Assembly (NCBI GenBank): GCA_947488905.1 | Contig: CANLBJ010000001.1 | Coordinates: forward strand, 248,001 to 312,000 | Direction of reading: 5' to 3' | Length of the DNA stretch: 64,000 nt | Source: Ulvibacter algarum | Lineage (GTDB): Bacteria; Bacteroidota; Bacteroidia; Flavobacteriales; Flavobacteriaceae | Shown: positions 2,978 to 25,728 of the stretch, piece after piece | Numbering within the stretch: the stretch's first letter is position 1 | Layout: each line of letters opens with the position of its first letter | Program-made: the position numbers and the translations under genes | The notes under the pieces: generated by a model | What the model was told of the DNA's origin: nothing | The model's database searches: none | The model's input: the letters and a program-made list of their open reading frames with translations, nothing else

Positions 2978-3051
2978 TCCTCTTTAGCTCAGTTGGTTAG
3001 AGCATCTGACTGTTAATCAGAGGGTCCTTGGTTCGAGCCCAAGAAGAGGAG
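2978..3051 (+). tRNA. tRNA-Asn (anticodon GTT)
   Basis: A 74-base cloverleaf. The acceptor arms TCCTCTT (2978-2984) and AAGAGGA (3044-3050) pair fully and G3051 is the discriminator. The D arm is AGCTCAGTTGGTTAGAGC. The anticodon stem is TCTGA/TCAGA with loop CTGTTAA, giving anticodon GTT at 3012-3014. The T arm contains GGTTCGAGCCC. The CCA end is not encoded. Confidence 0.97.
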
Positions 3052-3060
3052 CGAAATTAA

Positions 3061-3299: not shown

Positions 3300-3334
3300 A
3301 AAAAAGCAGCACGAAATCGTGCTGCTTTTTATAT
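3300..3334. terminator. Bidirectional terminator
   Basis: GCAGCACGA/TCGTGCTGC forms a perfect 9-bp stem with A-run before and T-run after. It lies just past the 3' end of the minus-strand gene that ends at 3353, so it most likely terminates that gene. Confidence 0.85.
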
Positions 3335-3352
3335 TTAGTAATTATGCTTTAA

Positions 3353-4054: not shown

Positions 4055-4241
4055 ATTAAATTTTTTTTCGCCTGGGATTTCAGGCAATTCTAAAGTAAAA
4101 TTAGTTAAATATTTGCCTCTATATTCTATTATCTAATAAAACATATAATACTTAATGTGTAAAATGTGATTTGCTTCTTTTAAATAGAAACAAAAGAAGA
4201 AGGGATTAGTATTGTTAAAAACAAAATGTAGCTTTATGACA

Positions 4242-5279: not shown

Positions 5280-5281
5280 CG

Positions 5282-6736: not shown

Positions 6737-6771
6737 TATTATTGTTGTTTATTAATAGAACTTTAAAAAGA

Positions 6772-7722
6772 TTAAGAGTAGATATCCTTAAGATTCTTTA
6801 GCATTATCTCTGTCATCTCATCAAGATTCACCTCATGTTCCCAACCCCAATCTTTACGAGCAACACTATCATCAATAGTTTGTGGCCAAGAATCTGCAAT
6901 CTCTTGTCTAAAGTCTGGTTCATACTCAATAGTAAACTCTGGCATGTGTTTTTGTATACTTGCCTTTATCTCTTCTGGATTAAAACTCATCGCAGCTAGA
7001 TTATATGCGTTTCTAATTTTCACATCCTCTGGTGCGGCAAGCATAATGTTTACAGTAGCTCTAATTGCATCACTCATAAACATCATAGGCAGCGTGGTTT
7101 CTGCATTTAAAAAACAGATGTATTTATTATGTTTTAAAGCCTTATGGTAAATATCTACGGCATAATCTGTCGTCCCTCCACCAGGTTGTGTTTTATAACT
7201 AATAAGCCCAGGGTAACGTATACTTCTTACATCTACTCCATACTTATTATGATAATACTCACACCAGCGTTCTCCAGTTTGCTTGCTTATACCATAAACG
7301 GTAGATGGCTCCATAATGGTTTGTTGTGGCGTGTCTAGTTTAGGTGTAGTAGGGCCAAAAACAGCAATACTGGATGGCCAAAATATTTTTTCAATCTTGC
7401 CGTCTTTTGCTAAATTAAGCACATTAAAAAGAGAATTCATATTTAAATCCCAAGCTTTCATCGGAAATTTTTCTGCAGTGGCAGATAGCATAGCTGCCAT
7501 CAAATACACATCTGTTATCTCATAAGAAATAACTACATCTTGTATCGCGTCATAATCCATAGCGTCAAGAATCTCAAAAGGACCAGTTTTCATAACCTCA
7601 TCTGCAGCTTCTGCAATATCGCTAGCAATCACCTTATGGTTACCATAAATACCACGCAGATACATAGTTAATTCTGTTCCTATTTGCCCAGAGGCACCTA
7701 TTATGAGGATTCTTTTTTTCAT
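6772..7722 (-). CDS. L-threonine 3-dehydrogenase, SDR type
   Basis: 316 residues. The Rossmann motif GASGQIG is at 9-15, the catalytic Tyr143/Lys147 lie in YGISK, and the segments WPSSIAVFG and TLPMMFMSDAIRAT are typical of the short-chain NAD-dependent threonine dehydrogenases first described in flavobacteria. The enzyme oxidises L-threonine to 2-amino-3-ketobutyrate. A relic of this same gene, covering codons about 177-200, lies 17.8 kb away at 24931-25009 on the far side of the PUFA cluster. This copy is intact. Confidence 0.9.
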   Translation of the reverse strand: MKKRILIIGASGQIGTELTMYLRGIYGNHKVIASDIAEAADEVMKTGPFEILDAMDYDAIQDVVISYEITDVYLMAAMLSATAEKFPMKAWDLNMNSLFNVLNLAKDGKIEKIFWPSSIAVFGPTTPKLDTPQQTIMEPSTVYGISKQTGERWCEYYHNKYGVDVRSIRYPGLISYKTQPGGGTTDYAVDIYHKALKHNKYICFLNAETTLPMMFMSDAIRATVNIMLAAPEDVKIRNAYNLAAMSFNPEEIKASIQKHMPEFTIEYEPDFRQEIADSWPQTIDDSVARKDWGWEHEVNLDEMTEIMLKNLKDIYS

Positions 7723-7751
7723 TGTACACTATTATTTTAGGGGATAAAGAT

Positions 7752-7960
7752 ACTAATAAGTTCTTTTGTTAGATTTGCGCAAAATTACAATCAAAAAACT
7801 CACAAGCAGTTATATTTATAAAGCAAATTTGCAACGATTTAATATTCAGATACTATTCTTTAGATTACTGCTTTTTTCTTCCTTCGGAAATGTCAAAATC
7901 AATACCAACGTGGCTACACAAAACATCAATAAGGTAGAAATAGTCTTTAAAAAAGTCTAA
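7752..7960 (+). repeat. Left copy of duplicated flank of the PUFA cluster
   Basis: This segment aligns in the same orientation with 25001-25206 at roughly three quarters identity by eye. Shared blocks include ATTTGCGC-AAATTACAATCAAAA, a -7-like TAGATTTG/TAAATTTG, GCAACGA-TT and GTGGCTACACAA. It covers the promoter and first 40-odd codons of the lipoprotein gene that is intact at 25086. Confidence 0.85.
7829..7960 (+). pseudogene. Relic of the lipoprotein gene intact at 25086
   Basis: The ATG of the intact gene corresponds to TTG here (7829) and the lipobox FSSCG has become FSSFG, losing the lipidated cysteine. The frame ends in TAA at 7958-7960 after about 43 codons where the intact protein has 195. 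Residue pattern is preserved: LQRFNIQILFFRLLLFSSFG against MQRLHIKILLLSLLIFSSCG. The end of pfaE lies only 26 bases further on. It is a dead fragment, not a small gene. Confidence 0.85.
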
Positions 7961-7986
7961 GAAAAAATAGCACGTTTAGATTAGGT

Positions 7987-8652
7987 TTATACTTCCAGTA
8001 AATCTTCAATCTGAATGTGATTTACTTGTATCTCCATTTTTTCTTCCGTAGCAACAATACCATTAAACTCGGGATCAAAGTCAAAGGTTTTAAAATAATA
8101 ACGCTTCTCTTTAAAAATACCATAATGTTCATTTATCTCTAGTTGTTTTAAGTCTTTTAAAGCACACCCAGCGGCTTTTAACAACGCCTCTTTACGAACC
8201 CAAAACCAATAGAAGCGTTCTAAAGAGTTTTCAGCTTCCATTATTGACTTCCATTCTGTATCTGTAAATAAGTATTTAAACAGATTTAGATCAATATCCT
8301 TTTTCTTTTCAATGTCAATACCAACAGAAATTTTGGTACCAAATATCAATACCACGTACCAATTACTGTGAGAAAGTGAAAAATTATAGTCTGTAAAACT
8401 CGGTTTTCCATGTTCAGAATAATGTATTTTTTCTAGTAATGTTGTTGAAATTTCGTTTTCAATTAATACTTTTTTCAATAGTAACCTTCCGGTAACATAG
8501 CTCAGTGAGCTTTCTGTATCTAAATATCTGTTTGCCCTGTAATAAATGGACTCAGGGAGGTTTTTTAGCAATACTTCTTTCGTTAAAAAAGAATCATTTT
8601 CTTTCATTTTAACTACCCAAATCTTTTGCATTGCTTCTTTGTTATTAAACAT
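7987..8652 (-). CDS. pfaE: 4'-phosphopantetheinyl transferase, Sfp type (PfaE)
   Basis: 221 residues. The Sfp-type Mg/CoA motifs are present: GIDIE (111-115) and FYWFWVRKEALLKAAG (Lys154, Glu155), with the upstream YSEHGKPSF and FSLSHS blocks. The enzyme transfers phosphopantetheine from CoA to acyl carrier protein serines; here the evident clients are the four ACP domains of the adjacent PfaA. The gene is divergent from the TetR gene and shares a 97-base control region with paired palindromes. The start at 8652 is used here; ATG at 8631 would still keep every motif. Confidence 0.93.
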   Translation of the reverse strand: MFNNKEAMQKIWVVKMKENDSFLTKEVLLKNLPESIYYRANRYLDTESSLSYVTGRLLLKKVLIENEISTTLLEKIHYSEHGKPSFTDYNFSLSHSNWYVVLIFGTKISVGIDIEKKKDIDLNLFKYLFTDTEWKSIMEAENSLERFYWFWVRKEALLKAAGCALKDLKQLEINEHYGIFKEKRYYFKTFDFDPEFNGIVATEEKMEIQVNHIQIEDLLEV

Positions 8653-8697
8653 TTATGATAAAATAGTAAGTAGTCTCATTTATAATACCTTTTTTTG

Positions 8698-8735
8698 TGG
8701 TACCAAATCTAAAAAACTGGTACCAAAACATCAAA
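8698..8735 (-). promoter_or_regulatory. pfaE promoter overlapped by twin TGGTACCA operators
   Basis: Reading the minus strand, TTTG (8735-8732) and TAGATTTG (8711-8704) are separated by 20 bases, a good Bacteroidota promoter for pfaE. Two perfect 8-bp palindromes TGGTACCA lie at 8698-8705 and 8718-8725, 20 bp apart (about two helical turns). One overlaps the -7 box and the other lies between -33 and -7. This is where a dimeric TetR-type repressor would bind, and the adjacent TetR gene is the obvious candidate. The binding itself is inference. Confidence 0.7.
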
Positions 8736-8749
8736 TTTAAGTAAACTAA

Positions 8750-9364
8750 ATGATTACGAAGGAATATATTATAGAGATTACAACTCAGCTTTATTTAAAA
8801 AACGGTGTGAAAGCTGTCACTATTGCAGATATAAGCAAGGAGTTAAGTACATCTAAACGTACTATCTATAATCATTTTTTAGACAAGACAGATTTAATGC
8901 AAGCCTGCATAGAGCAGTATTTAGCTGTCATAAGAAGTAGTAATGACGAAATCATTAACACCTGTAGCTCTGCTATTGAAGCAATGGGTATGATTCATCA
9001 GCAGATATTAAAAAGAGCAGATTACAGCAACGCAAATTTTTATAAAGACATACTTAAAAACTATCCTAGCGTATTGAAAGACTCATACGTAAAGAATTCA
9101 GAATTTGCTTTTCGCGAATTACTTTATTTATCAAAATGGGGTGTTAAAGATGGTTTGTTTAGGAAAGATTTAGATCCAGAAGTGACTATGGCAACTGTGC
9201 AAACACTTCTAAAATTATGCAATAACACTACAAAATTTCCATCAGATCAATTTTCTAAGGCCAGACTTACAGAAGGTATTATGGTTACGTATTTAAGAGG
9301 ATTATGTACCGAAAAAGGACTTTTGGAAGTTGAAAAACAAAAACATCTATACTTAATAGACTAG
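8750..9364 (+). CDS. TetR family regulator of the PUFA cluster
   Basis: 204 residues with a TetR N-terminal helix-turn-helix (about residues 20-50, TIADISKELSTSKRTIYNHF) and a helical ligand-binding C-terminal part that I cannot assign to a subfamily. It starts the operon: pfaA begins six bases after its stop codon, so the regulator and synthase are likely made from one transcript. Paired TGGTACCA palindromes upstream suggest autoregulation and control of pfaE. The ligand could be an acyl-CoA or fatty acid, by analogy with FabR/FadR-type TetR members, but nothing in the sequence proves this. Confidence 0.88.
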   Translation: MITKEYIIEITTQLYLKNGVKAVTIADISKELSTSKRTIYNHFLDKTDLMQACIEQYLAVIRSSNDEIINTCSSAIEAMGMIHQQILKRADYSNANFYKDILKNYPSVLKDSYVKNSEFAFRELLYLSKWGVKDGLFRKDLDPEVTMATVQTLLKLCNNTTKFPSDQFSKARLTEGIMVTYLRGLCTEKGLLEVEKQKHLYLID

Positions 9365-9370
9365 AAATAT

Positions 9371-12300
9371 ATGGACACTATTAACAGTTCACTTAAAAAA
9401 ACACCAGTAGCGATTATTGGTTTATCTGCTATGTTTGCTGATGCAAGCAACGTAGATCAATTTTGGAATAATATTATCAGTCAAAAAGATAGTATAGTAG
9501 ACGTTCCAGAATCACGTTGGAAAATAGAAGATTATTACGATGCAGATCCAATGGTTGCAGATAAAACCTATTGTAAAAAAGGAGGTTTTATTCCTGATGT
9601 AGATTTTAACCCATTAGAATTTGGATTACCTCCAAATATTTTAGAGGTTACAGATGCTTCTCAATTATTGGCCTTAATTGCAGCTAGAGATGCATTTGAA
9701 GATGCTGGTTACGGGAGAGAATCAGAAAAATTTACAGCACTTTTAAAAGAAAAAACTGGAGTAATTTTAGGTGTTGGTGGTGGACAAAAATTAATCACAC
9801 CGCTTACTTCTAGATTACAAGCTCCTATTTGGGAAGCAGCTTTAAAAAGCAGTGGCATTTCCGAAGCAGATATACCGCATATTGTAGATAAAATGAAGAA
9901 GGCATACATAGGCTGGAATGAAAATTCTTTTCCTGGTATGTTGGGTAATGTGATCTCTGGCCGTATTACAAATCGGTTTGATTTAGGAGGCATTAACTCT
10001 GTAGTAGATGCGGCTTGTGCAGCGTCTCTTTCTGCTGTAAAAATGGCGGTTTCAGAATTAATAGAAGGTCGTTGTGATATGATGTTAACGGGAGGTGTAG
10101 ATACAGACAACTCTCCATTTATGTATATGTCATTCTCTAAAACGCCTGCCTTTTCAAGAAAAGGAAGTATTCGTCCTTTTGACACTGACTCTGACGGGAT
10201 GTTGATTGGAGAAGGAGTAGGAATGTTAGTTTTAAAAAGATTAGAAGACGCAGAACGTGATGGAGACAGAATTTACGGTCTTCTTACAGGAGTAGGTTCT
10301 TCTAGTGATGGTCGTTATAAGTCAGTGTATGCTCCACGTCCTCACGGGCAAGCATTAGCGATGCAACGTGCTTATGACGAGGCAGGATATGATGCATCTA
10401 CGGTAAAATTAATAGAAGGTCACGGTACTGCAACTGGAGCTGGTGATGCAGCAGAGTTTGAGTCTATGTCTATGGTTTTTGGTAAAAACGATGCTACAAA
10501 AAATCACATTGCCATTGGTTCTGTAAAGTCTCAAATAGGACATACTAAAGCTGCGGCTGGTGCTGCCGGAATGATTAAGGCTGCCTTAGCTTTATATCAT
10601 AAAGTGCTACCAGGAACTATTAACGTAACGAAGCCACATGATAAGTTTGGGATTGAAAAATCTCCTTTTTATGTGAATGCCGAAACGCGCCCTTGGTTTA
10701 AAAATGGTGTGCCACGTAGAGCTGGTTTATCTGCTTTTGGTTTTGGAGGCGTTAACGTCCATTTTGCGATGGAAGAATACGAAAAGAAAACGTCGTTTAC
10801 AGATAGAATTCACCAGTCTTTTAATAGCATATATTTAAAAGCTGCAAATGCAACAGACTTACAAACGAGCCTTAAAAATACTATTGACGCTTTAAAGTCT
10901 AATGAAGCATCAACTGCCTTTTATAATTTAAAAGAACTATCAAAGAATGGAACTGCGTTAGAAAACGAAGCACGTTTAGGTTTTGTTGCAGAATCTTTAG
11001 AAGATTGTATTTCTAAATTAGAAATAGCAACTAAACAATTAGAAAGTAATAAAGATGCTTGGTCGCATCCAAAAGGTATATTCTTTAGACCAACCGGAAT
11101 TTCAAGCACAACAAAAATTGCTTCATTATTCTCTGGTCAAGGTTCTCAATATGCTAATATGGCAAAAGAAGCTACTAGTAGTTTTGAGACCATACAACAA
11201 ACTATTGCTAGTTTTGACGCTAAAAAAGAATACAACTTAGCAAGTAAAATATATCCAAAACCAGTTTTCACGGATGAGGATAAGGCAACTTTAGAGAAGA
11301 ATATTACAAGTACAGATATCGCTCAACCGGCAATTGGGGCTATAAGTTTGGGTTATTATAACGTATTTAAAAACGCAGGTTTTGTAAGCGATATGGTTGC
11401 AGGACACAGTTTTGGTGAGCTTACTGCACTTTGCGCATCTGGCGCAATTAGCGAAAGTGATTATATGACACTTGCTATTGCTCGCGGTAATGCTATGGCA
11501 GGTAAAAATGCCAGTGGCGATGCTGGGACTATGCTGGCTGTTAAAGCGGCTGCTTCAGAAATTGAACCGTTAATTGCAGCTATTGCAGGAGTTTCAATTG
11601 CAAACATCAACTCTTCAAGCCAAATAGTTTTAGGCGGAACAACAGAAGGGATTACAAAAGCTAAAACAGTTTTAGACGCTAAAAAATTCCGTTCTATTTT
11701 ACTTCCGGTTGCTGCGGCATTCCACACAGATTGTGTTGGTCACGCTCAAAAGCCTTTTGAGAAAAGTATAAACGCTATTAAGTTTTCAAGCCCAGCAATC
11801 CCTGTGTATTCTAATTCTACAGGAAATGCATACCCAAAAGAGGCTAACAAAATTAAAGAAATACTAGGACAGCATATTTTAAATTCGGTTGATTTTAAAA
11901 GCGAAATAGAGAATATGTATGCTGCTGGAGCTAGAGTTTTTGTAGAGTTTGGACCTAAGTCTATTCTAACAAATCTGGTAAAAGACATATTAAAAGACAA
12001 AGAGCATTTTGTTATAGCTACAAATGCAAAGGCTACTAAAAATAGTGATTTACAAATTAGAGAAGCTGCAATTCAATTACAGGTTTTAGGTTGTAAAATA
12101 GATGCTATTGATAGTAATGCTCGACAAGAAAAAGCGCCACTAGCTCAGCCTAAAATGGCAGTAAAAATAGCCGGAAACAACTATGTAAGTCCTGCAACTC
12201 AAAAAGCGTATCAAGATGTATTGAATAACGGTTTTAAAGTTAGCGGAGCAACAGAAATTTACAAAACCGAAGAAGAAATTAAGGAAATTGAAGTAATCTC

Positions 12301-14002
12301 TGAAGTGATAAACGCAATTCCAACTTATACTAACGAAGACAGTAAAGAACAAGAAACAGAAGAAGATATGATGGTAGATGTTATTAAAAGTGCCATTGAT
12401 GGCATTAAAGAAAATCAATCTAAAACATTAGATATGTTCCAAACAATTTTGATGGAACAAAACAAACAAACAGCTCAGTTATTGGGTCTTTTATCAGGAA
12501 ATTTTTCAGCAGATCAAAATGTTTTAGAAGCTCCAAGTGCTCCTTTAAGTCTTGAAAATTCTGCTCCTGTTGAAGAAACCATTACAGCACCTATTACTCC
12601 TCAACCTTCAGAGCCTATTGCGGCTCAAGAACCTCAAACAATTGCAACGCCTGCTCCAGTAGCAGCGCCAGTTGTTGAGACAGTTGTTCCTACTCAAGGA
12701 AACTCAGAGATGTTAGATTTAATGTTAAGCGTGGTTGCAGACAAAACAGGTTATCCTGCAGAAATGTTAGAATTAAGCATGGATATGGAAGCAGATTTAG
12801 GTATCGACTCTATTAAACGTGTTGAGATTTTTGGAGCTATCACAGAGCAATCTGATAAACTAACCGATATTAATCCAAACGATTTAACAGAACTTAGAAC
12901 CTTACAAGAAATTGTAGACTACATTTCTAGTAAAGCGGGTATTAGCGCCTCTGCTCCTATTGCAGCAACTCAAACTATTGCAACGCCTGCTCCATTAGCA
13001 GCACCAGTTGTTGAGACTGTTGTTTCTTCTGAAGGAAACTCAGAAATGCTAGATTTAATGCTAAGCGTTGTTGCAGACAAAACGGGTTATCCTGCTGAAA
13101 TGTTAGAATTAAGTATGGATATGGAAGCAGATTTAGGTATCGATTCTATTAAACGTGTGGAAATTTTTGGAGCTATCACAGAGCAATCAGATAAACTAAC
13201 AGATATCAACCCTAACGATTTAACAGAACTTAGAACGCTACAAGAAATTGTAGATTACATCTCTAGTAAAGCGGGTATTAGTGCCTCTGCTCCTATTGCA
13301 GCAACTCAAACAATTGCAACGCCTGCTCCAGTAGCAGCGCCAGTTGTTGAGACAGTTACTTCTTCTGAAGGAAATTCAGAGATGCTAGATTTAATGCTAA
13401 GCGTAGTTGCAGATAAAACGGGTTATCCTGCTGAAATGTTAGAATTAAGCATGGATATGGAAGCAGATTTAGGTATCGATTCTATTAAACGTGTGGAAAT
13501 TTTTGGAGCTATCACAGAGCAATCTGATAAACTAACAGATATCAATCCAAACGATTTAACAGAGCTTAGAACGCTACAAGAAATTGTAGATTACATTTCT
13601 AGTAAAGCGGGTATTAGCGCTACTACAGAAACTGTAGTATCTAAACCAGAAGCAACTGTTACAGAAACAGTAGCTACAGATTTATTTTCTGCACCAGTAG
13701 ATGAAACAATTAACGTTTCCGAAGGGAATTCAGAGATGTTAGATTTAATGTTGAGCGTGGTTGCAGACAAGACAGGTTATCCAGCTGAGATGTTAGAACT
13801 AAGCATGGATATGGAAGCAGATTTAGGTATCGACTCTATTAAACGTGTTGAGATTTTCGGAGCTATCACAGAGCAATCAGATAAGTTAACCGATATTAAT
13901 CCAAACGATTTAACAGAGCTTAGAACGCTACAAGAAATTGTAGATTATATTTCTAGTAAAGCAGGCATTTCAACTAAAAAAAAAAGTCTAAGTCTAGCTT
14001 AG
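9371..14002 (+). CDS. pfaA: PUFA synthase subunit PfaA, KS-AT-ACPx4 part
   Basis: 1543 residues. In order: ketosynthase (about 10-470; Cys216 in DAACAAS, EGHGTATGAGD, GHTKAAAGAAG), malonyl-CoA:ACP acyltransferase (about 560-880; Ser680 in GHSFGE), a linker with a Pro/Ala-rich stretch, and four ACP domains with the attachment serine in LGIDSIKR at 1147, 1259, 1371 and 1489. In characterised PUFA synthases PfaA continues into KR and DH domains. Here the frame stops eight codons after an A10 tract (13976-13985) and KR-DH follows in the -1 frame. Either the two parts work as separate proteins or slippage on the A-run joins them. Four carrier domains is within the known range. Confidence 0.95.
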   Translation: MDTINSSLKKTPVAIIGLSAMFADASNVDQFWNNIISQKDSIVDVPESRWKIEDYYDADPMVADKTYCKKGGFIPDVDFNPLEFGLPPNILEVTDASQLLALIAARDAFEDAGYGRESEKFTALLKEKTGVILGVGGGQKLITPLTSRLQAPIWEAALKSSGISEADIPHIVDKMKKAYIGWNENSFPGMLGNVISGRITNRFDLGGINSVVDAACAASLSAVKMAVSELIEGRCDMMLTGGVDTDNSPFMYMSFSKTPAFSRKGSIRPFDTDSDGMLIGEGVGMLVLKRLEDAERDGDRIYGLLTGVGSSSDGRYKSVYAPRPHGQALAMQRAYDEAGYDASTVKLIEGHGTATGAGDAAEFESMSMVFGKNDATKNHIAIGSVKSQIGHTKAAAGAAGMIKAALALYHKVLPGTINVTKPHDKFGIEKSPFYVNAETRPWFKNGVPRRAGLSAFGFGGVNVHFAMEEYEKKTSFTDRIHQSFNSIYLKAANATDLQTSLKNTIDALKSNEASTAFYNLKELSKNGTALENEARLGFVAESLEDCISKLEIATKQLESNKDAWSHPKGIFFRPTGISSTTKIASLFSGQGSQYANMAKEATSSFETIQQTIASFDAKKEYNLASKIYPKPVFTDEDKATLEKNITSTDIAQPAIGAISLGYYNVFKNAGFVSDMVAGHSFGELTALCASGAISESDYMTLAIARGNAMAGKNASGDAGTMLAVKAAASEIEPLIAAIAGVSIANINSSSQIVLGGTTEGITKAKTVLDAKKFRSILLPVAAAFHTDCVGHAQKPFEKSINAIKFSSPAIPVYSNSTGNAYPKEANKIKEILGQHILNSVDFKSEIENMYAAGARVFVEFGPKSILTNLVKDILKDKEHFVIATNAKATKNSDLQIREAAIQLQVLGCKIDAIDSNARQEKAPLAQPKMAVKIAGNNYVSPATQKAYQDVLNNGFKVSGATEIYKTEEEIKEIEVISEVINAIPTYTNEDSKEQETEEDMMVDVIKSAIDGIKENQSKTLDMFQTILMEQNKQTAQLLGLLSGNFSADQNVLEAPSAPLSLENSAPVEETITAPITPQPSEPIAAQEPQTIATPAPVAAPVVETVVPTQGNSEMLDLMLSVVADKTGYPAEMLELSMDMEADLGIDSIKRVEIFGAITEQSDKLTDINPNDLTELRTLQEIVDYISSKAGISASAPIAATQTIATPAPLAAPVVETVVSSEGNSEMLDLMLSVVADKTGYPAEMLELSMDMEADLGIDSIKRVEIFGAITEQSDKLTDINPNDLTELRTLQEIVDYISSKAGISASAPIAATQTIATPAPVAAPVVETVTSSEGNSEMLDLMLSVVADKTGYPAEMLELSMDMEADLGIDSIKRVEIFGAITEQSDKLTDINPNDLTELRTLQEIVDYISSKAGISATTETVVSKPEATVTETVATDLFSAPVDETINVSEGNSEMLDLMLSVVADKTGYPAEMLELSMDMEADLGIDSIKRVEIFGAITEQSDKLTDINPNDLTELRTLQEIVDYISSKAGISTKKKSLSLA
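12698..13970 (+). repeat. Four tandem ACP-domain repeats within pfaA
   Basis: The repeat period is 336, 336 and 354 bases measured at the ACP serine codons (12809, 13145, 13481, 13835). The ACP cores, from GNSEMLDL to SSKAGIS, are identical at protein level. At DNA level they differ only at scattered, mostly third-position bases. The linkers between copies 1-3 repeat a Pro/Ala block (IATPAP-AAPVVETV); the linker before copy 4 is different. Such near-identity suggests recent duplication or gene conversion. Confidence 0.95.
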
Positions 14003-14053
14003 ACATTAATACTAAAGTAAGTGAGGAGAATACTTTTACACAAGCATTCTCCT
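13976..14053 (+). promoter_or_regulatory. A10 tract and hairpin at the pfaA frame break
   Basis: Ten A residues (13976-13985) are followed by G. The pfaA frame reads AAA AAA AAA AGT and stops at 14000-14002. The -1 frame is closed by TAA at 13975 but open from 13978 onward and runs without interruption into the KR-DH part. A perfect 8-bp stem AGGAGAAT/ATTCTCCT (14024-14031 with 14046-14053) follows. A-runs of this length are known sites of ribosomal or RNA polymerase slippage. A sequencing error in the homopolymer would look the same. Confidence 0.6.
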
Positions 14054-16491: not shown

Positions 16492-16530
16492 TAATATAGC
16501 GATTACTGTAAGCATACATTAAAACAACAA

Positions 16531-19500
16531 ATGAAAGAAAAAATAGCAATCATCGGTATGTCTTCCCTTTTTCCGGGGTCTAAAACGTTACAAGAGTTTT
16601 GGAACAACCTTATGGATAAAAAAGACTTAACCGGTATGGCAACAAAAGATGATTTTGGGGCAGACCCAGAACTCTTTTATCAAAAAGACAAGGGTGTAAT
16701 AGACCGTTGTTACTCTTTGCGCGGAGGATACATTAGAGATTATAATTTTAACAGTGCAGACTTTGGCTCTGAAGATTTAAGTGACTTAGACCAAATGTAT
16801 CAATGGGGTTTACAAGTCACAAAAGACGCTTTAATACACGGAGGTTATTGGGATAAAGACAAAGCTTTGGATACTTGTGGTGTAATCTTCGGAAACTTAT
16901 CATTTCCGACGAAATCTTCTCATAAAATTCTTGCGCCTATGTATACTGAAACGCTCGAAAAAGGAATAAAAAGTCTTTTGAAAGATGACAGTTTTAAAAT
17001 GCCATCAACAGAATTTGACATTCCGAAGAACAACCCAATAGAAGGGGATGTTTCAGAATTGGTTAAAAAAATTATTGGTTTAAAAGGAACAAACTTCGAT
17101 TTAGATGCTGCCTGTGCTTCCTCATTATATGCTATAAAGATGGCTTGTGATGAGTTGCTAACGGGTAAAGCAGATATGATGTTGGCTGGAGCCGTTTGCT
17201 CTTCAGATCAATTATTTATCCACATGGGCTTTTCTATTTTTCACGCCTATGCAGCACACGATAAAAAATACTCGCCACTAGATAAAGACTCTGCAGGCTT
17301 AGTGTCTTCTGAAGGTGCTGGGATGATTTTACTAAAACGTTTATCTGACGCAGAAAAAGATGGCGATAACATTATTGGTGTTATTTCTGGGATAGGATTA
17401 TCTAACGATGGAGCAGGAAAGTTTTTATTAAGCCCTAACCCAAAAGGACAAACGTTGGCGTATGAAAGAGCTTATAACGGGAGCATTTCAAAAGAAAACA
17501 CCTCGTATATAGAATGCCACGCAACAGGTACTCCGCTTGGCGATGTTACAGAAATAAACTCACTCGAAACCTTTTTTGGGGACAACCCAGACAAGCTGCG
17601 TTTAGGTTCTGTAAAGTCAAATATGGGGCATATGTTAACGGCGGCAGGAATGCCAAGTTTAATGAAAGTTTTGCTCTCTATGGAGCACAATGTTATTCCT
17701 CCGGGAATCAATATGTCTACGGCAATTCAGTCTGAAAAAGGATGGTTTAAGAGAGAGCAAATTATCGAAGAACCTTTAAAATGGGAAACAAATTATAAGC
17801 AAGCTGCTGTAAATTCTTTTGGTTTTGGAGGTACAAATGCCCATTTAGTGGTAGAGAATCATCACAAGGGAGAAAGCAAAAAGCACAAAGATGTTTCGTT
17901 AAAAGAAATGGCCATCACGAGTATGGAAGTTCATTTTGGCGACTGCAATAATCTAGATACTTTTTACAAATCTATTTTTGATGGCAAGCAACATTTTTCT
18001 GAAATGCCACAAGACAGATGGAAAGGCTTTGAAAAGAATAATGAGTTATTAGCTCAATTTGGATTGAATGCTGAAACGTCAATTAAAGGAAACTTTATTG
18101 ATGCCTTTGATATGGATTTAATGCGTTATAAAATCCAACCAAATGAAATAGGTACGATGGAACCTCAGCAGGCTTTAATTTTAAAAGTTGCAGACGAGGC
18201 TATCCAAAAATCAAGTTTAGAAAGAGGTGGTAACGTAGCAGTATTAATCGCTATGAATCCAGAACTAGCGATACACCATTATTTAGCTCGTTGGGATAGC
18301 GAATGGCAATTAGACAAGGCGCTAGACAGTGCAGAGGTTGATTTAGATGAAGCACAAAAAGCAACACTTCTAGCAGAGTGTCGTAATATTTTATACCAAA
18401 TAGGAAACGTACAAACGCCAAGCCAGCATACTAGTTTTGTTGGTAATATTATGTCGAGTCGTATTTCTGCTTTATGGGATTTTAACGGACCATCGTTCAC
18501 GATTACCAATGGAGATAATGGAACAACAAGAGCTTTAGAAGTAGCACAAAATATGTTGTCTTTAGGCGAAGTTGACGCTGTTGTTGTGGGAGCTGTAGAT
18601 TTTTCTGCAAGTATGGAAGCAGTGCTTTTACGAAATTTAGTGGATGCGGTTAACCAAAACAAAAAACCTAGTTTGTCTTTTAATGCAGACGATTACGGTT
18701 GGCTAATTGGTGAAGGAGCATCTGCCATTGTTTTAAAGGCAAGCGATGCTATTAATGAGAATGACACTGTTTACGCGACAATTGATGCCATTGGAGATAT
18801 ACCAACAGATAAAAATATTGCTTTACAAGAGTTAGTGGCTTCAGGGTTTAAGCTTGAGGATGAATTAGAACTAGCGCAATTAGCAGTAAATAAGCCAAAG
18901 AACAAAGTAGCCTTAGGTTCTGTAAAAACTACTATTGGGCATACTTTTGCAGCTTCTGGATTGGCTGCTATTGTTAAAACGGCGCTGTGTGTGTATCATC
19001 AATTTATTCCGGGGATTCCAAACTGGAATGCTGCGAAAAACGATTCATTTAAAAACAGTAACTACTATTTCCCTAATCAATCAAGACCTTGGGTAAATGA
19101 AAGAAAAAAACCTAGACAAGCACTTGTTAACTTAAGTTTAAATACTAGAGTTAAACTTTCGGAAGTAACATTTCCGAAGCAACAACAAATAGATAATTTT
19201 TTACAAAAGCATTTATTTGTTTTAAAAGGAAACACGCAAAAGGAACTTCAAGAAAGCTTAAACTTAATTAGCAAAGCTATTCTTGAAAACGACCTAGAAT
19301 TTGTTGCGCAAACCTTTTTTGATAAAGCTGCAAAAACGAAAACGACATACCGTATTGTTTTAATTGCCTCTACAGTCAAATCAATACAACAAGACATCCG
19401 TTTTATTGAAAGAAAACTAGAAGAAGCGTTTGCAAATACTACCGATATTAAATTGCCAAGCGGATCATTTTTTAGTCCGAACCCAAGTGCCACTAAAGGA

Positions 19501-22500
19501 GATTTAGCATTTGTGTATCCAGGTTCGGCAACTAGTTATGAAGGATTAGGGCAAGATTTATTTCAATTTTTCCCAAATCTTTTGAGTGATTTTGAACATC
19601 AAATTCCAAACTTAAGAGACTTCTTTGGCTTAGATTATTTATTCCCTAAAAAGCAAAATAGCGCAACACCTTCACCTAATATTCAAGACGACGCAATTTC
19701 TATGATGTCTGCGGGAGTGCTGTATGCAACCTTGTATACTCATATATTAAGAGAATATTTCGGCGTAAAGCCAAAAGCTGCCATGGGGTATTCTATGGGC
19801 GAATGTAGTTCTATGTGGTATGCCTTTGGGATATGGAATCCAAGTGAAGGCACTAAAATATTTAGAAATTCTCCCATATTTAAAAACAAGTTTTCTGGTG
19901 ATTTAGAATTGCTAGCAGATGAGTGGAATATTAGTACAAAAGAAGCTAAAGCAAGATGGCAAAGTTGGATTTTATTAGAAACGAAAGAAAAGGTTGAAGC
20001 CGAAATATCCAAGTTTGATAAAGTGTCCATCACTTTTGTAAACTCTGAAAAGGAGTTAATTATTTCGGGAGATAAAAACCAATGTGAGGCGTTAATTGCT
20101 ACTCTTAATTGTGCTTCGGTATTAGTGCCATTTCAAAACATAATCCATAATGAATTCTGTAAAAAAGAATACCACGGACTTATTGAAATGCACAATTTCC
20201 CTTTAGAAAATAAACCCGAAGTTGATTTTTACTCAAGTTTAACGGGTGATAAAATCACGATGGATTCGCTTACAATTGCTGAGAACTCAACAGAGGTTTG
20301 TTATAAAACAGTCGATTTTCCCGCTTTTGCAAAAAAGATGTCGTCAAATGGATTTAGCACATTTGTGGAGCTTGGGCCAAATAGTACTTGTACTAACTGG
20401 ATAAAAGATACGCTAGACCAAAACACACATTCGGCCAGTGCAATTGATAAAAAAGGGACGAGTTCAATACAGTCTTTATATGAGTGTTTAGCACAATTAA
20501 TTTCTAACGGAATTGACATTGATTTGGGTTTATTATACCCTAATAAAAATCAAAAGGATGTAAAAAAGCGCTTTACTAAAAAAGTAAAAACAGGAGGAAG
20601 ACCTGTATTTGATGTGTTACTTTCTGATGAAATGAAATCACAGTTTGCAACTATAAAACGAAAAGAAAAAGTAGAAAACACTACAAAAAAGTCAGGCTTA
20701 ATTGAGCCGAAAACTTCAACACCTATAGTAGAAAAAACAACTAGTATGACAGATTCTCAAATGCCAAACAACGCCACTAAATTGGGTGAAAATGGCTTGA
20801 AATTACAAGATTATAATGATCCAAATCATTTAAAAGATAAAAACATAATTTTCACTAAAGAAGATTTAATTGAATTTTCTGAAGGGAAAATAGGTAATGT
20901 TTTTGGTGCAGAATATAATGTTATTGACCAATATAAACGAAGAGTAATGTTACCGATGGATCCTTATTTATTGGTGAGTAGGGTTACAGGGTTAAATGCA
21001 AAATTAGGAGAATACAAGCCTTCTACAATGCAAACGGAGTATGATATTCCGTACAATTCTGGTTACGCTACTGATACGCAAATTCCTTGGGCAGTGTCTG
21101 TAGAGTCTGGACAATGTGATTTAATGTTGATTTCTTATTTAGGAATTGATCTTGAAAACAAGGGAGAGTATGTGTACCGTCTTTTAGACTGCACCTTAAC
21201 TTTTCTGGACGATTTACCTTTTGAAGGGCAAACCTTGAGATATGATATTTCTATAAATTCGTTTGTTAGAAATGGTCGTAACCTTTTGTTTTTCTTTAGT
21301 TATGAGTGTTTTGTTGAAGACCGCATGGTATTAAAAATGACCAATGGTGTCGCTGGTTTCTTTACTGACGAAGAGTTAGATAAAGGAAATGGTGTTGTCT
21401 ATACAGATAGTGAAAAGAATGCTTTATTAAATGTTGAAAAGAAGAAATTCATTCCTTTTTTAACTACAAAAAAGACTTCTTTTGATATTGAAGATTTAAG
21501 ACACCTTATCAATGGAGATGCTCATAAATGTTTTGATGACATTTCGTATTTCCCTAATGGAAGAAATGAATCAATAAGACTAGCACCAGAAAAAATGCTG
21601 ATGCTAGATCGTATTACTAAAGCAGATGTTCACGGTGGTGCTTATGGTTTAGGAGAAATTATCGCAGAAAAAGACCTGAGTCCAGATGATTGGTATTTCC
21701 CGTGTCATTTTAGAGATGATGAGGTTTTAGCAGGTTCATTACAAGCAGAAGGTGGCGGAAACTTATTGCGTTTCTTTATGATGATGCTAGGGTTACAACG
21801 TCTTAAAAAAGATGCCCGTTTTCAACCTATTTATGGAGTTGCACAAAAAGTAAGATGTAGAAAAGAAGTAACACCAAACGATAAAAAGCTAGTGTATCGC
21901 TTAGTGATTAAAGATATTGGGCTATTGCCAGATCCTTATGTAATTGGAGATTTAGAGATTATTGTAGATGGAGTAATTACGGTACATTTTGCTAATTTAG
22001 GATTACAGCTAAGAGAAAAAGACAACCCAAAATACTTAGAGCAACCTAAAAAAATAACAGAGAACGTATTATTAAACGAAACAGATATTGAGACTTTTGC
22101 TTTAGGAAGATTAGCAGATTGTTTTGGTCCCGAATATGCTGTTTATGATAATAGAGCTTTATCACGCCAGCCAAATACAGATTTACAAGTAGTAAGCCGT
22201 GTTATTAAAATTGATGGTGAACGTTTTGATTTTTCAAAGCCAACTAACATTTGGACGGAGTATGACGTGCCTCAAGATGTGTGGTATTACAAACAAAATG
22301 CATCTATGACAATGCCTTATGCGGTGTTGATGGAAATTGCATTACAGCCTTGTGGACTTTTGGGTGCTTACTTAGGAAGTACATTACAATTTCCGGAGAA
22401 AGATTTATACTTTAGAAACTTAGATGGTGATGGCGAAATGTTTGACTTACCAGCGGGTACTGACTTTAGAGGAAAGGTGATTAAAAACAAATCTACACTA

Positions 22501-23217
22501 ACATCTTCAACATCTTTAGGTGGTTTTGTAATTCAGAAATACTTGTTTGAAGTATCGGTTGAGGGACACGTTTTTTATAAAGGATTCTCTTCATTTGGAT
22601 TCTTTCCGCAGGAAGCATTAGCACAACAAGTAGGATTAGACAAAGGGGAAGATGTACCAGCGTGGTATGTTCAAAACAAGTTGACACCTAAGGATTATTT
22701 TCAAATAAAACTAGATTCTTTATATGCAAAAATGAAGTTGTATAAAGAGAATGACAAAGCAAGTATGTTTCGTTTAGCCGAAGACCAACTGGATTTATTA
22801 GACAGTGGTTTAGTGGTTAAAAACGGTGGGGAGTTTGGAAACGGATACATTCACTGTTCAAAAGAAATACATACGTACGATTGGTTTTTTACCTGCCATT
22901 TTTATTCAGATCCTGTAATGCCTGGCTCTTTAGGAGTTGAAGCTATTTCGCAAGCGATGCAGTTATTTGCTCTTCAGCAAGATTTAGGGAAAGACTTTAA
23001 AAACCCGCGTTTTGTTCAAGTAGAAAACAATAAAACTGAATGGAAATACCGTGGTCAAATAAAGATCAATGTGGAGAACATGCATCTAGAAGTGCATTTT
23101 AAAACCATTGAAAAAAGAGGAGATACTTTGGTTATGATTGCAAACGCATATCTCTGGAATGAAGGAACTAGAATTTACCAATTAACAGACTTGGCTTTAG
23201 GAATTCAAGAAGCTTAA
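16531..23217 (+). CDS. pfaC: PUFA synthase subunit PfaC with fused acyltransferase (KS-CLF-AT-DH-DH)
   Basis: 2228 residues. In order: ketosynthase (Cys195 in DAACASS, HATGTPLGD, SNMGHM); chain-length factor, a second KS fold in which the cysteine position reads TITNGDNGT (near 655-665); an acyltransferase with Ser1088 in GYSMGE; and two FabA-type double-hot-dog dehydratase/isomerase regions with CHFRDD (His1726) and CHFYSD (His2123). In Shewanella-type clusters the acyltransferase is a separate PfaB; no separate pfaB is present here. The fused order recalls the Pfa3 subunit of terrestrial myxobacteria. The two dehydratases set the position and cis geometry of the double bonds. It starts 39 bases after the KR-DH part. 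Confidence 0.95.
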   Translation: MKEKIAIIGMSSLFPGSKTLQEFWNNLMDKKDLTGMATKDDFGADPELFYQKDKGVIDRCYSLRGGYIRDYNFNSADFGSEDLSDLDQMYQWGLQVTKDALIHGGYWDKDKALDTCGVIFGNLSFPTKSSHKILAPMYTETLEKGIKSLLKDDSFKMPSTEFDIPKNNPIEGDVSELVKKIIGLKGTNFDLDAACASSLYAIKMACDELLTGKADMMLAGAVCSSDQLFIHMGFSIFHAYAAHDKKYSPLDKDSAGLVSSEGAGMILLKRLSDAEKDGDNIIGVISGIGLSNDGAGKFLLSPNPKGQTLAYERAYNGSISKENTSYIECHATGTPLGDVTEINSLETFFGDNPDKLRLGSVKSNMGHMLTAAGMPSLMKVLLSMEHNVIPPGINMSTAIQSEKGWFKREQIIEEPLKWETNYKQAAVNSFGFGGTNAHLVVENHHKGESKKHKDVSLKEMAITSMEVHFGDCNNLDTFYKSIFDGKQHFSEMPQDRWKGFEKNNELLAQFGLNAETSIKGNFIDAFDMDLMRYKIQPNEIGTMEPQQALILKVADEAIQKSSLERGGNVAVLIAMNPELAIHHYLARWDSEWQLDKALDSAEVDLDEAQKATLLAECRNILYQIGNVQTPSQHTSFVGNIMSSRISALWDFNGPSFTITNGDNGTTRALEVAQNMLSLGEVDAVVVGAVDFSASMEAVLLRNLVDAVNQNKKPSLSFNADDYGWLIGEGASAIVLKASDAINENDTVYATIDAIGDIPTDKNIALQELVASGFKLEDELELAQLAVNKPKNKVALGSVKTTIGHTFAASGLAAIVKTALCVYHQFIPGIPNWNAAKNDSFKNSNYYFPNQSRPWVNERKKPRQALVNLSLNTRVKLSEVTFPKQQQIDNFLQKHLFVLKGNTQKELQESLNLISKAILENDLEFVAQTFFDKAAKTKTTYRIVLIASTVKSIQQDIRFIERKLEEAFANTTDIKLPSGSFFSPNPSATKGDLAFVYPGSATSYEGLGQDLFQFFPNLLSDFEHQIPNLRDFFGLDYLFPKKQNSATPSPNIQDDAISMMSAGVLYATLYTHILREYFGVKPKAAMGYSMGECSSMWYAFGIWNPSEGTKIFRNSPIFKNKFSGDLELLADEWNISTKEAKARWQSWILLETKEKVEAEISKFDKVSITFVNSEKELIISGDKNQCEALIATLNCASVLVPFQNIIHNEFCKKEYHGLIEMHNFPLENKPEVDFYSSLTGDKITMDSLTIAENSTEVCYKTVDFPAFAKKMSSNGFSTFVELGPNSTCTNWIKDTLDQNTHSASAIDKKGTSSIQSLYECLAQLISNGIDIDLGLLYPNKNQKDVKKRFTKKVKTGGRPVFDVLLSDEMKSQFATIKRKEKVENTTKKSGLIEPKTSTPIVEKTTSMTDSQMPNNATKLGENGLKLQDYNDPNHLKDKNIIFTKEDLIEFSEGKIGNVFGAEYNVIDQYKRRVMLPMDPYLLVSRVTGLNAKLGEYKPSTMQTEYDIPYNSGYATDTQIPWAVSVESGQCDLMLISYLGIDLENKGEYVYRLLDCTLTFLDDLPFEGQTLRYDISINSFVRNGRNLLFFFSYECFVEDRMVLKMTNGVAGFFTDEELDKGNGVVYTDSEKNALLNVEKKKFIPFLTTKKTSFDIEDLRHLINGDAHKCFDDISYFPNGRNESIRLAPEKMLMLDRITKADVHGGAYGLGEIIAEKDLSPDDWYFPCHFRDDEVLAGSLQAEGGGNLLRFFMMMLGLQRLKKDARFQPIYGVAQKVRCRKEVTPNDKKLVYRLVIKDIGLLPDPYVIGDLEIIVDGVITVHFANLGLQLREKDNPKYLEQPKKITENVLLNETDIETFALGRLADCFGPEYAVYDNRALSRQPNTDLQVVSRVIKIDGERFDFSKPTNIWTEYDVPQDVWYYKQNASMTMPYAVLMEIALQPCGLLGAYLGSTLQFPEKDLYFRNLDGDGEMFDLPAGTDFRGKVIKNKSTLTSSTSLGGFVIQKYLFEVSVEGHVFYKGFSSFGFFPQEALAQQVGLDKGEDVPAWYVQNKLTPKDYFQIKLDSLYAKMKLYKENDKASMFRLAEDQLDLLDSGLVVKNGGEFGNGYIHCSKEIHTYDWFFTCHFYSDPVMPGSLGVEAISQAMQLFALQQDLGKDFKNPRFVQVENNKTEWKYRGQIKINVENMHLEVHFKTIEKRGDTLVMIANAYLWNEGTRIYQLTDLALGIQEA

Positions 23218-23301
23218 AAGAACTAATTATATAATAAACATTTAGCATTTCAGAAAAAATCAAAAATTTCTATAAGAAATGCCAAAATCAAAATACAAAA
23301 G

Positions 23302-24876
23302 ATGATTGACTTAAAATGGATAGGATCTCCTAGAGAGATTTCATTTGACTTAAAAGGGATGTCTGATAAATTGAAAAATACTGCCGTACCTTGTTACGTA
23401 GTGAAAGATTTATCAGGGCGAACTGGAATTACAAATACAGGAACAATTCAGTCTGAAGGAAAAGGGTTGTTTCTTGAAGCGATAGTGCCTGCGTTTACTG
23501 CAGAAGATTTTGGTGACGCTTCTTTTAAAGCAGATTACAACTTAAAGTATGCCTACAAAGGTGGCGCCATGGCAAATGGAATTGCGTCAACTGATATGGT
23601 AATCGCTTTAGGAAAAAAACAAATGATAGGTTCTTTTGGTGCGGCAGGGATGATCCCTTCGCGTGTAAAAGAAGCCATTGCGACTATTCAGAAAGCATTG
23701 CCAACTCAAGCATATGCTTGTAACCTTATCCACAGTCCTATTGAAAAAGCGCTGGAAGAAGGAGCGGTAAACTTATACATTGAACACGGAGTGAAGGTCG
23801 TAGAAGCTTCGGCATACATGAACTTATCTGAACAGATTGTAAAATATAGAGCAGTTGGTTTAAGTTTAGATGCAGATGGCGAGATTGTTATTGGTAATAA
23901 AGTGATTGGTAAAGTTTCTAGAAAGGAAGTAGCATTACGTTTTATGTCGCCAGCACCTGTTCAGTTTTTAGATAAATTATTAGCTGCCGGAAAAATAACA
24001 CAGCAACAATATGAGTTGGCTCAAAAAGTACCAATGGCAGATGATATAACGGTAGAAGCTGATTCTGGAGGACATACAGACAACCGTCCGTTAGTAGTAT
24101 TATTTCCTATCATTTTACAATTGAGAGATGAAATTCAGAAAAAATACAACTACAAAAAACAGATTAGAGTGGGCGCTGCAGGAGGAATAGGAACACCTGC
24201 TTCTGCCTTAGCTGCATTTAGTATGGGTGCCGCATACGTAGTAACGGGATCTATTAATCAAGCCTGTGTAGAATCTGGAACATCAGATAAAGTAAAGGAG
24301 TTACTCTCTAAAGTAGCCTCTACAGATGTAACGATGGCACCAGCGTCAGATATGTTTGAACTAGGCGTAGAATTACAAGTTTTAAAACGCGGAACCTTAT
24401 TTGGTGCTAGAGCGAAAAAACTATATGAAGTATATACGCGTTATGAAGGCATTGATGATATACCTGCAGAAGAAAGACTAAAACTGGAAACAAAAACCTT
24501 TAAAATGCCTTTAGAAAAGGTGTGGGAAGGTTGTGTTAGCTTCTTTGAAGAAAGAGATCCTGAGCAAATAGAAAAAGCACAAGGAAACCCTAAACGAAAA
24601 ATGGCTTTAATTTTCCGTTGGTACTTGGGGCTATCTTCTAACTGGGCCAATGCAGGTGATCCAGATAGAGTTATGGATTATCAAATATGGTGTGGCCCAG
24701 CAATGGGTGCTTTTAACGAGTGGACTAAAGATTCATACTTAAGTGAAGCAAAAAACAGAAAAGTTGCTGAGGTGGCTACTCATTTATTAGAAGGAGCTGC
24801 ATATTTACACAGAATAAACACTATTAAAGATCAAGGTGTTAATCTACCTCTTGACCTGTTGCATTTAAATATTTAA
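23302..24876 (+). CDS. pfaD: PUFA synthase enoyl reductase PfaD
   Basis: 524 residues, the usual PfaD size. It is an FMN-dependent TIM-barrel reductase related to 2-nitropropane dioxygenases: MANGIASTDMVIALGKK, GGHTDNRPL, VGAAGGIGTPAS and GAAYVVTGSINQAC form the flavin and active-site loops. PfaD reduces the enoyl intermediates at those cycles that yield saturated carbons. It is the last gene of the operon, 84 bases after pfaC, and is followed by a clear terminator. Confidence 0.95.
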   Translation: MIDLKWIGSPREISFDLKGMSDKLKNTAVPCYVVKDLSGRTGITNTGTIQSEGKGLFLEAIVPAFTAEDFGDASFKADYNLKYAYKGGAMANGIASTDMVIALGKKQMIGSFGAAGMIPSRVKEAIATIQKALPTQAYACNLIHSPIEKALEEGAVNLYIEHGVKVVEASAYMNLSEQIVKYRAVGLSLDADGEIVIGNKVIGKVSRKEVALRFMSPAPVQFLDKLLAAGKITQQQYELAQKVPMADDITVEADSGGHTDNRPLVVLFPIILQLRDEIQKKYNYKKQIRVGAAGGIGTPASALAAFSMGAAYVVTGSINQACVESGTSDKVKELLSKVASTDVTMAPASDMFELGVELQVLKRGTLFGARAKKLYEVYTRYEGIDDIPAEERLKLETKTFKMPLEKVWEGCVSFFEERDPEQIEKAQGNPKRKMALIFRWYLGLSSNWANAGDPDRVMDYQIWCGPAMGAFNEWTKDSYLSEAKNRKVAEVATHLLEGAAYLHRINTIKDQGVNLPLDLLHLNI

Positions 24877-24903
24877 AGAATCTATTGTAAAAAACGATAA
24901 AAT

Positions 24904-24940
24904 AAACCCAATCAATTAATGGTTGGGTTTATTATTTTTT
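24904..24940 (+). terminator. Terminator of the pfa operon
   Basis: AAACCCAA (24904-24911) pairs with TTGGGTTT (24923-24930), followed by ATTATTTTTT. The 3' arm touches the start of the threonine dehydrogenase relic. Confidence 0.85.
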
Positions 24941-25009
24941 AAAGCATTCTAGTATATGTATTCTGCATAATCTGTCGCCCCTACTCTAGTTTGCGTTTTA
25001 ACTAATATG
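24931..25009 (-). pseudogene. Relic of L-threonine 3-dehydrogenase gene
   Basis: The minus-strand reading gives KTQTRVGATDYAEYIY, a stop, then NALKNNK. It aligns with KTQPGGGTTDYAVDIY-HKALKHNK of the intact enzyme (codons about 177-200 of the gene at 6772-7722), with the key GCATAATCTGTCG-CCCT block shared at DNA level. The rest of the gene is missing. The junction to the lipoprotein promoter falls exactly at ACTAATATG (25001-25009), matching a 9-base direct repeat present twice in the intact arrangement (7198-7206 and 7752-7760). Confidence 0.85.
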
Positions 25010-25206
25010 TACTTTCGTTAAATTTGCGCTAAATTACAATCAAAATACCCGCAAGCCCTTATATTTGTAGTGCAACTACGCTACTATGCAACGACTTCAT
25101 ATTAAGATATTACTACTCAGTTTACTCATTTTTTCTTCCTGCGGAAATGACAAAGGCAACACCACATTGGCTACACAAGATACCAGTAAGTCAAAAACTA
25201 TCTTCG
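25001..25206 (+). repeat. Right copy of duplicated flank of the PUFA cluster
   Basis: This is the same-orientation partner of 7752-7960 and carries the promoter region and 5' end of the intact lipoprotein gene. With the adjoining dehydrogenase relic it reproduces, in order, the dehydrogenase-lipoprotein junction that lies left of the cluster. Confidence 0.85.
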
Positions 25207-25673
25207 GAAAAAATAACCACACTTCAGCTGTTGCAGCTCCTGCCCTAACAGAAATCATTGGACAATGGGGTGCTTATAACGATTTTACAGACGATATAAA
25301 TAAAGTGAACAGAAACACTATTGAAGGCCTTAAGGTGGTTTCTAATAGATTAGTAGTCTCTTCAGATTCTTTATACCGTTTTATTCCTGACACTTTAAAC
25401 ACAAAATCTATTTCTGCAAGATTGATGGTTTTACAAACAAGAATTAAACTTTTACAGCAAGAGATAGGGTTTGATCGCCTAGACTCAAGTAAGGTTGAGG
25501 AGCACATTTCAGAAATAAATAATGCCCACACAAACTTTATCACTCAAATGAATGAAAAGTTTATTAAAGACGGTATTAATCAAGAACAGAAAGATGTTGA
25601 AGATCGTGAAATAGAAAAGAGAAAACGAGATTCTATTTTTAATCTAGAATTAAAAGACAATAACCGCAACTAA
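25086..25673 (+). CDS. Lipoprotein of unknown function
   Basis: 195 residues. A lipoprotein signal is evident: LLLSLLIFSSCGND, with Cys19 or thereabouts as the lipidated residue. The remainder is helical and charged, with a pattern that looks coiled-coil like (SARLMVLQTRIKLLQQE, then a Glu/Lys/Arg-rich C-terminus). I do not recognise a family. A truncated, lipobox-less relic of it lies at 7829-7960 on the other side of the pfa cluster. TAAATTTG at 25019-25026 and TATATTTG at 25060-25067 are possible -7 boxes. Confidence 0.78.
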   Translation: MQRLHIKILLLSLLIFSSCGNDKGNTTLATQDTSKSKTIFGKNNHTSAVAAPALTEIIGQWGAYNDFTDDINKVNRNTIEGLKVVSNRLVVSSDSLYRFIPDTLNTKSISARLMVLQTRIKLLQQEIGFDRLDSSKVEEHISEINNAHTNFITQMNEKFIKDGINQEQKDVEDREIEKRKRDSIFNLELKDNNRN

Positions 25674-25728
25674 CTGTAACATTTATAGCCCAATAGCTAC
25701 TAAACAATTACACACTAATTAAATAAAA

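Follow-up and report, generated by a model that had tools for sequence, protein, structure and literature searches.

How did a 17-kb cassette for polyunsaturated fats come to lie between two divergent chromosomal genes without any visible means of moving there? In the window analyzed here, a stretch of 64,000 nucleotides of a Ulvibacter algarum contig (CANLBJ010000001.1), six genes (PPTase, TetR, pfaA1, pfaA2, pfaBC, and pfaD) sit where a dehydrogenase and a lipoprotein gene formerly shared a divergent promoter region of 0.11 kb (Table 1). A preliminary description of the locus had proposed that the dehydrogenase-lipoprotein unit is directly repeated around the cassette and that a circular DNA integrated there by a single crossover. 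No replicon or plasmid, integrase, or transposase gene was found among the six genes between the two copies, and the GC content of the cassette (36.3%, compared to 33.6 and 34.0% on the flanks) is not informative.

Table 1. Coordinates of the features in the window
Feature	Position	Strand	Basis
tRNA-Asn; 3' side borders the genus-variable region and is the place of pfa in P. marinus	2978..3052	+	ARAGORN
Intact L-threonine dehydrogenase, left copy	6772..7722	-	PDB 2yy7, E 4e-144; assigned by sequence
Left copy of duplicated unit: dehydrogenase 5' part, shared upstream region, lipoprotein gene 5' part	7123..7960	.	alignments
Lipoprotein relic: TTG start, lipobox Cys changed to Phe, 43 codons then stop	7829..7960	+	
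Left junction between lipoprotein relic and PPTase 3' end	7961..7986	.	
4'-Phosphopantetheinyl transferase (PPTase, pfaE-like)	7987..8652	-	PF01648; same place in 4 other flavobacterial cassettes
TetR-family regulator	8750..9364	+	PF00440
pfaA1: KS-AT-4 ACP	9371..14002	+	TIGR02813, PF00550 with 4 stretches
pfaA2: KR and dehydratase-like domains	14053..16491	+	domain matches
pfaBC: two KS (second presumably chain-length factor), AT, two FabA-like domains	16531..23217	+	
pfaD, enoyl reductase	23302..24876	+	TIGR02814, E 8.5e-199
pfaD terminator-like hairpin with T-tract	24905..24939	+	read from sequence
Dehydrogenase relic, right copy, matching 7123-7197	24928..25000	-	
Shared upstream region, right copy, promoter side of lipoprotein gene, TATATTTG kept	25001..25085	.	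alignment
Intact lipoprotein gene, right copy	25086..25673	+	78% aa in G005, 70% in G009

The cassette resembles the Type D pfa clusters of marine Bacteroidetes which, in the portion consulted of Shulse and Allen 2011 (PMC3098273), have pfaA split into pfaA1 and pfaA2, as in Psychroflexus torquis and Ulvibacter sp. SCB49, and pfaB fused with pfaC in the order KS-CLF-AT-DH2. Here too, pfaA comprises KS-AT-ACPn plus a separate KR gene, and the fused pfaB-pfaC holds two KS, one AT, and two FabA-like domains, the identity of the CLF being presumed. The cassette differs in having four ACP (PP-binding stretches; four 300-nt repeats) compared to the five described in that portion of the source; the repeats lie at 12628-13953 with a spacing of ~336 to 354 bp. 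Moreover, the pfaA1 of Patiriisocius marinus is 111 codons shorter, i.e., about one ACP repeat, so that the two sister species apparently have different numbers of ACP and "Type D-like" is the safe name. A further trait of Type D clusters is the production of arachidonic and eicosapentaenoic acid. The six-gene order is common to P. marinus (genome G006, taken as KCTC 32322, NZ_BKCG01000001.1), Psychroserpens jangbogonensis, Maribacter antarcticus, and the MAG NORP129. Among 397 genomes sampled from the family, 7 gave a pfaD match (E ≤ 1e-50), U. algarum and P. marinus included, four of the seven being close. Two MAG contigs labelled Klebsiella pneumoniae and Akkermansia muciniphila (L064, L073), perhaps mis-binned, carry pfaD relatives at 49 to 50% amino acid identity, and another genome (G013, L032 1501-1806) has a pfaD fragment with 47% amino acid identity over 102 residues and three in-frame stops, perhaps the relic of a lost cassette.

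The case for a duplicated insertion site rests on two aligned blocks. Local alignment of 7000-8100 with 24877-25700 matched 7752-7954 to 25001-25213 at 161 of 202 positions (80%), with a score of 160 compared to a maximum of 34 among 200 dinucleotide shuffles, and a second block joined 7123-7204 to 24928-25007 (79% over 82 positions, E 3e-14 in a 6 kb x 6 kb comparison). With the ~554 bp that the right copy lacks included, the unit runs from 7123 to ~7960 (0.83 kb); its original length is uncertain because the relic ends have decayed. The dehydrogenase-lipoprotein copies keep identical order and orientation on both sides of the cassette, and the alignments, far above chance, thus demonstrate the direct repeat and supply the flank identity on which the preliminary description had made its proposal depend. 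A chance match or two unrelated paralogues would be a practically negligible explanation, contradicted by this score and E value. Moreover, the 3.55-Mb U. algarum genome, queried with either copy, returned only both copies and one 25-base match elsewhere, without a further copy among the candidates scored (40 among 104 and 83 first-look candidates). The island borders, described beforehand as near exact, are indeed tight, with 51 bp from pfaD to the right relic and at most 32 bp from the left relic to the PPTase gene. The limits proposed for the relics themselves required adjustment: both relics are present, but the right one starts within the T-tract of the pfaD terminator at ~24928 and not at 24931; on the left, given as 7829-7960, the alignment runs to 7954 and the frame stops at 7960.

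The two copies have decayed reciprocally, each having retained one gene plus the upstream side of that gene, which agrees with the earlier assignment of an intact dehydrogenase and a lipoprotein relic on the left and the reverse on the right. The left dehydrogenase matches the gene of 9 of the 10 congeners at 77 to 89% amino acid identity, the tenth (G009) having contig-edge pieces only, and the ATG start of the left lipoprotein gene has become TTG. In the right copy, the dehydrogenase relic jumps straight to the upstream region, and the ~554 bp between ACTAATAAG at 7198 and ACTAATAAG at 7752 are absent; a loss bounded by two ACTAATAAG is as expected for a deletion between short repeats. The intact lipoprotein had no match in Pfam and NCBIfam scans. 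Upstream of it, TATATTTG occupies the same position in the right copy, G005, and G009, and the left copy has TATATTTA instead; the promoter consensus of Bacteroidetes is TAnnTTTG. Over 39 codons of the lipoprotein relic, left and right differ by dS 0.36 and dN 0.30, and in the same N-terminal piece, the intact genes differ by 0.43 and 0.41 (right versus G009) and by 0.63 and 0.24 (right versus G005). Relaxed selection read from these rates was discarded as proof of decay, because the intact genes also diverge strongly there; the lost start, the lost lipobox Cys, and the truncation show that the lipoprotein relic has decayed.

The state of the site before the insertion can be read from relatives. 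The dehydrogenase and lipoprotein genes are adjoining and divergent in all 10 congeners searched, with gaps of 114 to 246 bp (the G009 contig carries just the first 23 dehydrogenase codons), as the preliminary description had anticipated for relatives without pfa. A DNA search with the duplicated unit matched each of these 10 genomes exactly once, two copies being present in U. algarum only. The adjacent pair and the single DNA match thus establish the empty site as the ancestral state, which had been claimed to be clear. A pfaD gene was found in one of the 10 congeners, P. marinus. Completeness is 96% for G005, 77% for G010, and 59% for G009, for which only the intact junction consequently counts. 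The duplication was seen in the pfa-bearing U. algarum genome only, and relics standing without pfa, named beforehand as the contrary case, were seen in none of the 10 congeners. Beyond these, 24 genomes gave a lipoprotein match (58 searched besides U. algarum), and the pair is adjacent in 20, with 114 to 338 bp between; in three of the other four, the best matches do not lie together. The fourth, G023 of another genus, has 5.1 kb between the dehydrogenase and the lipoprotein match (L101 8092-13143), with open reading frames of 447 and 812 amino acids inside. Tandem duplications being common events, the pair could have been duplicated first and pfa inserted later; this is very unlikely given that 0 of 10 congeners have a second DNA match to the unit and that the insertion would have had to strike the exact junction.

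The two copies resemble each other somewhat more than they resemble those of other congeners. Over 7752-7945, identities are 150/194 for left and right, 138/194 for left and G005, and 153/202 for right and G005, and 10 sites group left and right against G005 and G009, compared to 5 and 2 for the alternatives. The maximum likelihood tree unites left and right, 6.6 log units better than the alternatives (AU p 0.041 for both), which the KH and SH tests did not reject (p 0.061); a six-taxon tree from both blocks has supports of 48 to 71%. The right dehydrogenase relic matches the gene of its own genome at 58 of 73 positions, compared to 48, 52, and 50 of 73 for G005, G006, and G008. As far as these sequences tell, the grouping of left and right has modest support, and the duplication most likely arose in the U. 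algarum lineage after its split from G005 and G009; a donor closer to this lineage than these two is conceivable. Compared with P. marinus, both window copies are of U. algarum type. P. marinus was discarded as the direct source of the duplicated piece, since its lipoprotein shows 34% identity and the intergenic region could not be aligned.

The pfa genes themselves tell another history. The pfaA2, pfaBC, and pfaD genes are 94 to 96% identical to those of P. marinus, compared to 83.8% for rpoB, and pfaA1 about 90% only, over its first 1050 codons. The dS values between the two species are 0.16 for pfaA2, 0.19 for pfaBC, 0.28 for pfaD, 0.43 for the first 1050 codons of pfaA1, 0.56 for TetR, and 2.26 for PPTase, compared to 1.07 for rpoB and, for four neighboring native genes, 1.02 (M13 peptidase), 1.62 (dehydrogenase), 1.83 (720-1400), and 2.39 (1555-2889). 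In 250-column windows, identity is 66 to 75% in PPTase and ~85 to 92% up to 11.4 kb; from 11.7 kb on, it is mostly 92 to 100%, with 81 to 91% in the ACP repeats. These values indicate that pfaA-pfaD came to be shared only once the two species had separated and that the cassette is a mosaic, with breaks near 8.7 and 11.6 kb; with a PPTase dS of 2.26, it is not one recent transfer. The horizontal origin put forward for the cluster is thus demonstrated for pfaA-pfaD (dS 0.16 to 0.56 over the cassette genes other than PPTase), but PPTase does not follow P. marinus, so that no single history covers the whole cluster. In the rpoB comparison, the partner of U. algarum is G009, and P. marinus joins G008 and G010 (G005 has no rpoB match), and no pfaD match was found in G008, G009, and G010, the last two being the 59% and 77% complete genomes. 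Two acquisitions are the simplest reading. Patchy pfa clusters are ascribed to horizontal transfer in the consulted portion of PMC3098273.

In P. marinus, the cassette lies a few kilobases away from the corresponding site, between tRNA-Asn and the same dehydrogenase, which follows pfaD after 4.1 kb in the same relative orientation. Both borders of this cassette carry a 33-bp copy of the tRNA terminator (1000859-1000891 and 1017567-1017598; 97%, E 9e-9). The 23-bp core of this repeat has two exact copies in that genome, both bordering pfa, and the pattern with up to 3 mismatches has three copies, the exact two again bordering pfa. The genus has further terminators of this kind (another in P. 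marinus at C4:213161, 88%, and one in L057), which weakens the repeat as evidence. In the window, homology past the tRNA-Asn terminator stops at 3092-3095 in comparison with six congeners (G009, P. marinus, G001, G010, G002, and G004), which marks 3053-3095 as a variable spot. Two candidate explanations were discarded: the terminator was not transferred from P. marinus with pfa, being conserved with the tRNA at 95 to 99% in these six genomes, and an integrase-type genomic island at the tRNA does not fit cassette genes that lack an integrase and begin 4.9 kb from tRNA-Asn. Downstream of pfaD, both genomes carry ACC(G)CAATCAATTA, whose alignment score was reached by 0 of 1000 base shuffles; the shared part, 24906-24918, is the first half of the hairpin, and the likeness to P. 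marinus ends in the loop.

Elsewhere in the family, no direct repeat around the pfa clusters of Psychroserpens, Maribacter, and NORP129 was convincing, the best match (E 0.009) being inverted. In a comparison of nine right and six left flanks, from which the L077 left flank was not used further, L088 12665-12764 of Psychroserpens and L090 15780-15879 of Maribacter are 85% identical over 100 bp just past the PPTase stop, so that these two cassettes have a common left edge. The pfa island of Vibrio splendidus 12B01, present in few strains and missing from close relatives, is called a perfect insertion, with no flanking duplication mentioned in the portion of PMC3098273 consulted; the flanks here are duplicated.

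Altogether, we favor at a probability of roughly 45% that a circularized fragment carrying pfaD, part of the dehydrogenase gene, and part of the lipoprotein gene integrated by one crossover. The donor fragment would have had pfaD beside the dehydrogenase and part of the lipoprotein gene, an order also seen in P. marinus, where 4.1 kb lies between, and its two ends, at the broken lipoprotein gene and at PPTase, would have been joined into a circle. Within the dehydrogenase-lipoprotein segment, a single RecA-type crossover would then have inserted the circle and directly duplicated ~0.83 kb of the site (7123-7960). The order lipoprotein'-PPTase...pfaD-dehydrogenase', with flanks of the own lineage, follows from a circle and one crossover, and both divergent genes survived because each retained a complete copy together with its upstream region. 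The truncated partner genes would subsequently have decayed, the right dehydrogenase start region through the deletion between the ACTAATAAG repeats and the left lipoprotein gene through loss of its start codon, lipobox, and TATATTTG element, and pfaA-pfaD, but not PPTase, would have been shared with the P. marinus lineage later or simultaneously. Flanking direct repeats of a recipient segment and an uninterrupted single copy in relatives, the marks of single-crossover (Campbell) integration, are both present. A similar outcome is known from Escherichia coli, where, in the portion of PMC3240628 consulted, a linearized plasmid gave a duplication-diagnostic PCR product in 56 of 60 clones of the class examined, and 14 sequenced clones had duplications of 109 to 950 bp, attributed there to a single crossover of a circular molecule. 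There too part of the homologous locus stands as a direct duplication on both sides of the insert, but in a laboratory lacZ construct, whereas the cassette here is a natural one of 17 kb with an old, decayed duplication.

Thus, the facts of the preliminary description were right and its mechanism is plausibly right: the direct duplication and the empty ancestral state stand, but the circle is not proven because the six genes of the interval include no replicon, integrase, or transposase gene, both copies look own-lineage, and a tandem duplication gives the same junctions. No genome was found to carry a fragment with pfa beside an own-lineage dehydrogenase. The main rival, which we consider possible though not probable, involves no circle: pfa would first have occupied its P. 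marinus position, between tRNA-Asn and the dehydrogenase; a tandem duplication would have copied the segment from pfa to the truncated lipoprotein gene, and the first pfa would have been lost. Such a local duplication accounts for the same junctions and for a cassette within ~5 kb and in the same orientation in two species; it requires a further large deletion, and 3053-6772 holds no pfa remnant (tblastn best E 0.15; DNA matches at chance level) and no match to the kinase found 3' of pfa in P. marinus, whose best homologue (36%) lies on another contig. These missing leftovers are weak evidence, since they may have been deleted. An insertion of a pfa fragment in one step, independent of the P. 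marinus location, in which repair or template switching at a broken end left a long duplication of the target, would agree with the tight borders and with the lack of mobile-element genes in the cassette, but turns the neighborhood common with P. marinus into a coincidence, and we hold it to be unlikely. The chance of two independent insertions within ~5 kb in the same orientation is roughly 0.1 to 0.2% by our own estimate, which assumes uniform sites and would rise with a local hot spot; this favors the models linked to P. marinus.

A broader view, in our opinion decidedly doubtful, is that flavobacteria pass on the Type D-like pfa cassette as a circle that lacks an integrase and enters chromosomes by single crossovers at short shared stretches. 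It would have entered through the 33-bp tRNA terminator in P. marinus and through 0.83 kb of dehydrogenase-lipoprotein DNA here, each entry leaving a direct repeat, with pfaA-pfaD later homogenized between species.

No mention of this island was found in literature titles and abstract openings, and the consulted text of PMC3098273 does not describe an insertion site for Type D clusters. New in this study is that P. marinus carries the same cassette a few kilobases away, bracketed by the 33-bp terminator repeat. The locus is a real and well-preserved insertion scar with a parallel case in a sister species; events of this kind are known, and the footprint here is unusually clear. The entry of 17 kb without mobility genes into a chromosome is seldom visible, and its footprint has been kept here as a target duplication, an empty site in close relatives, reciprocal decay, and a sister-species cassette a few kilobases away. 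It illustrates that two genes can both survive an insertion into the divergent promoter that they share.
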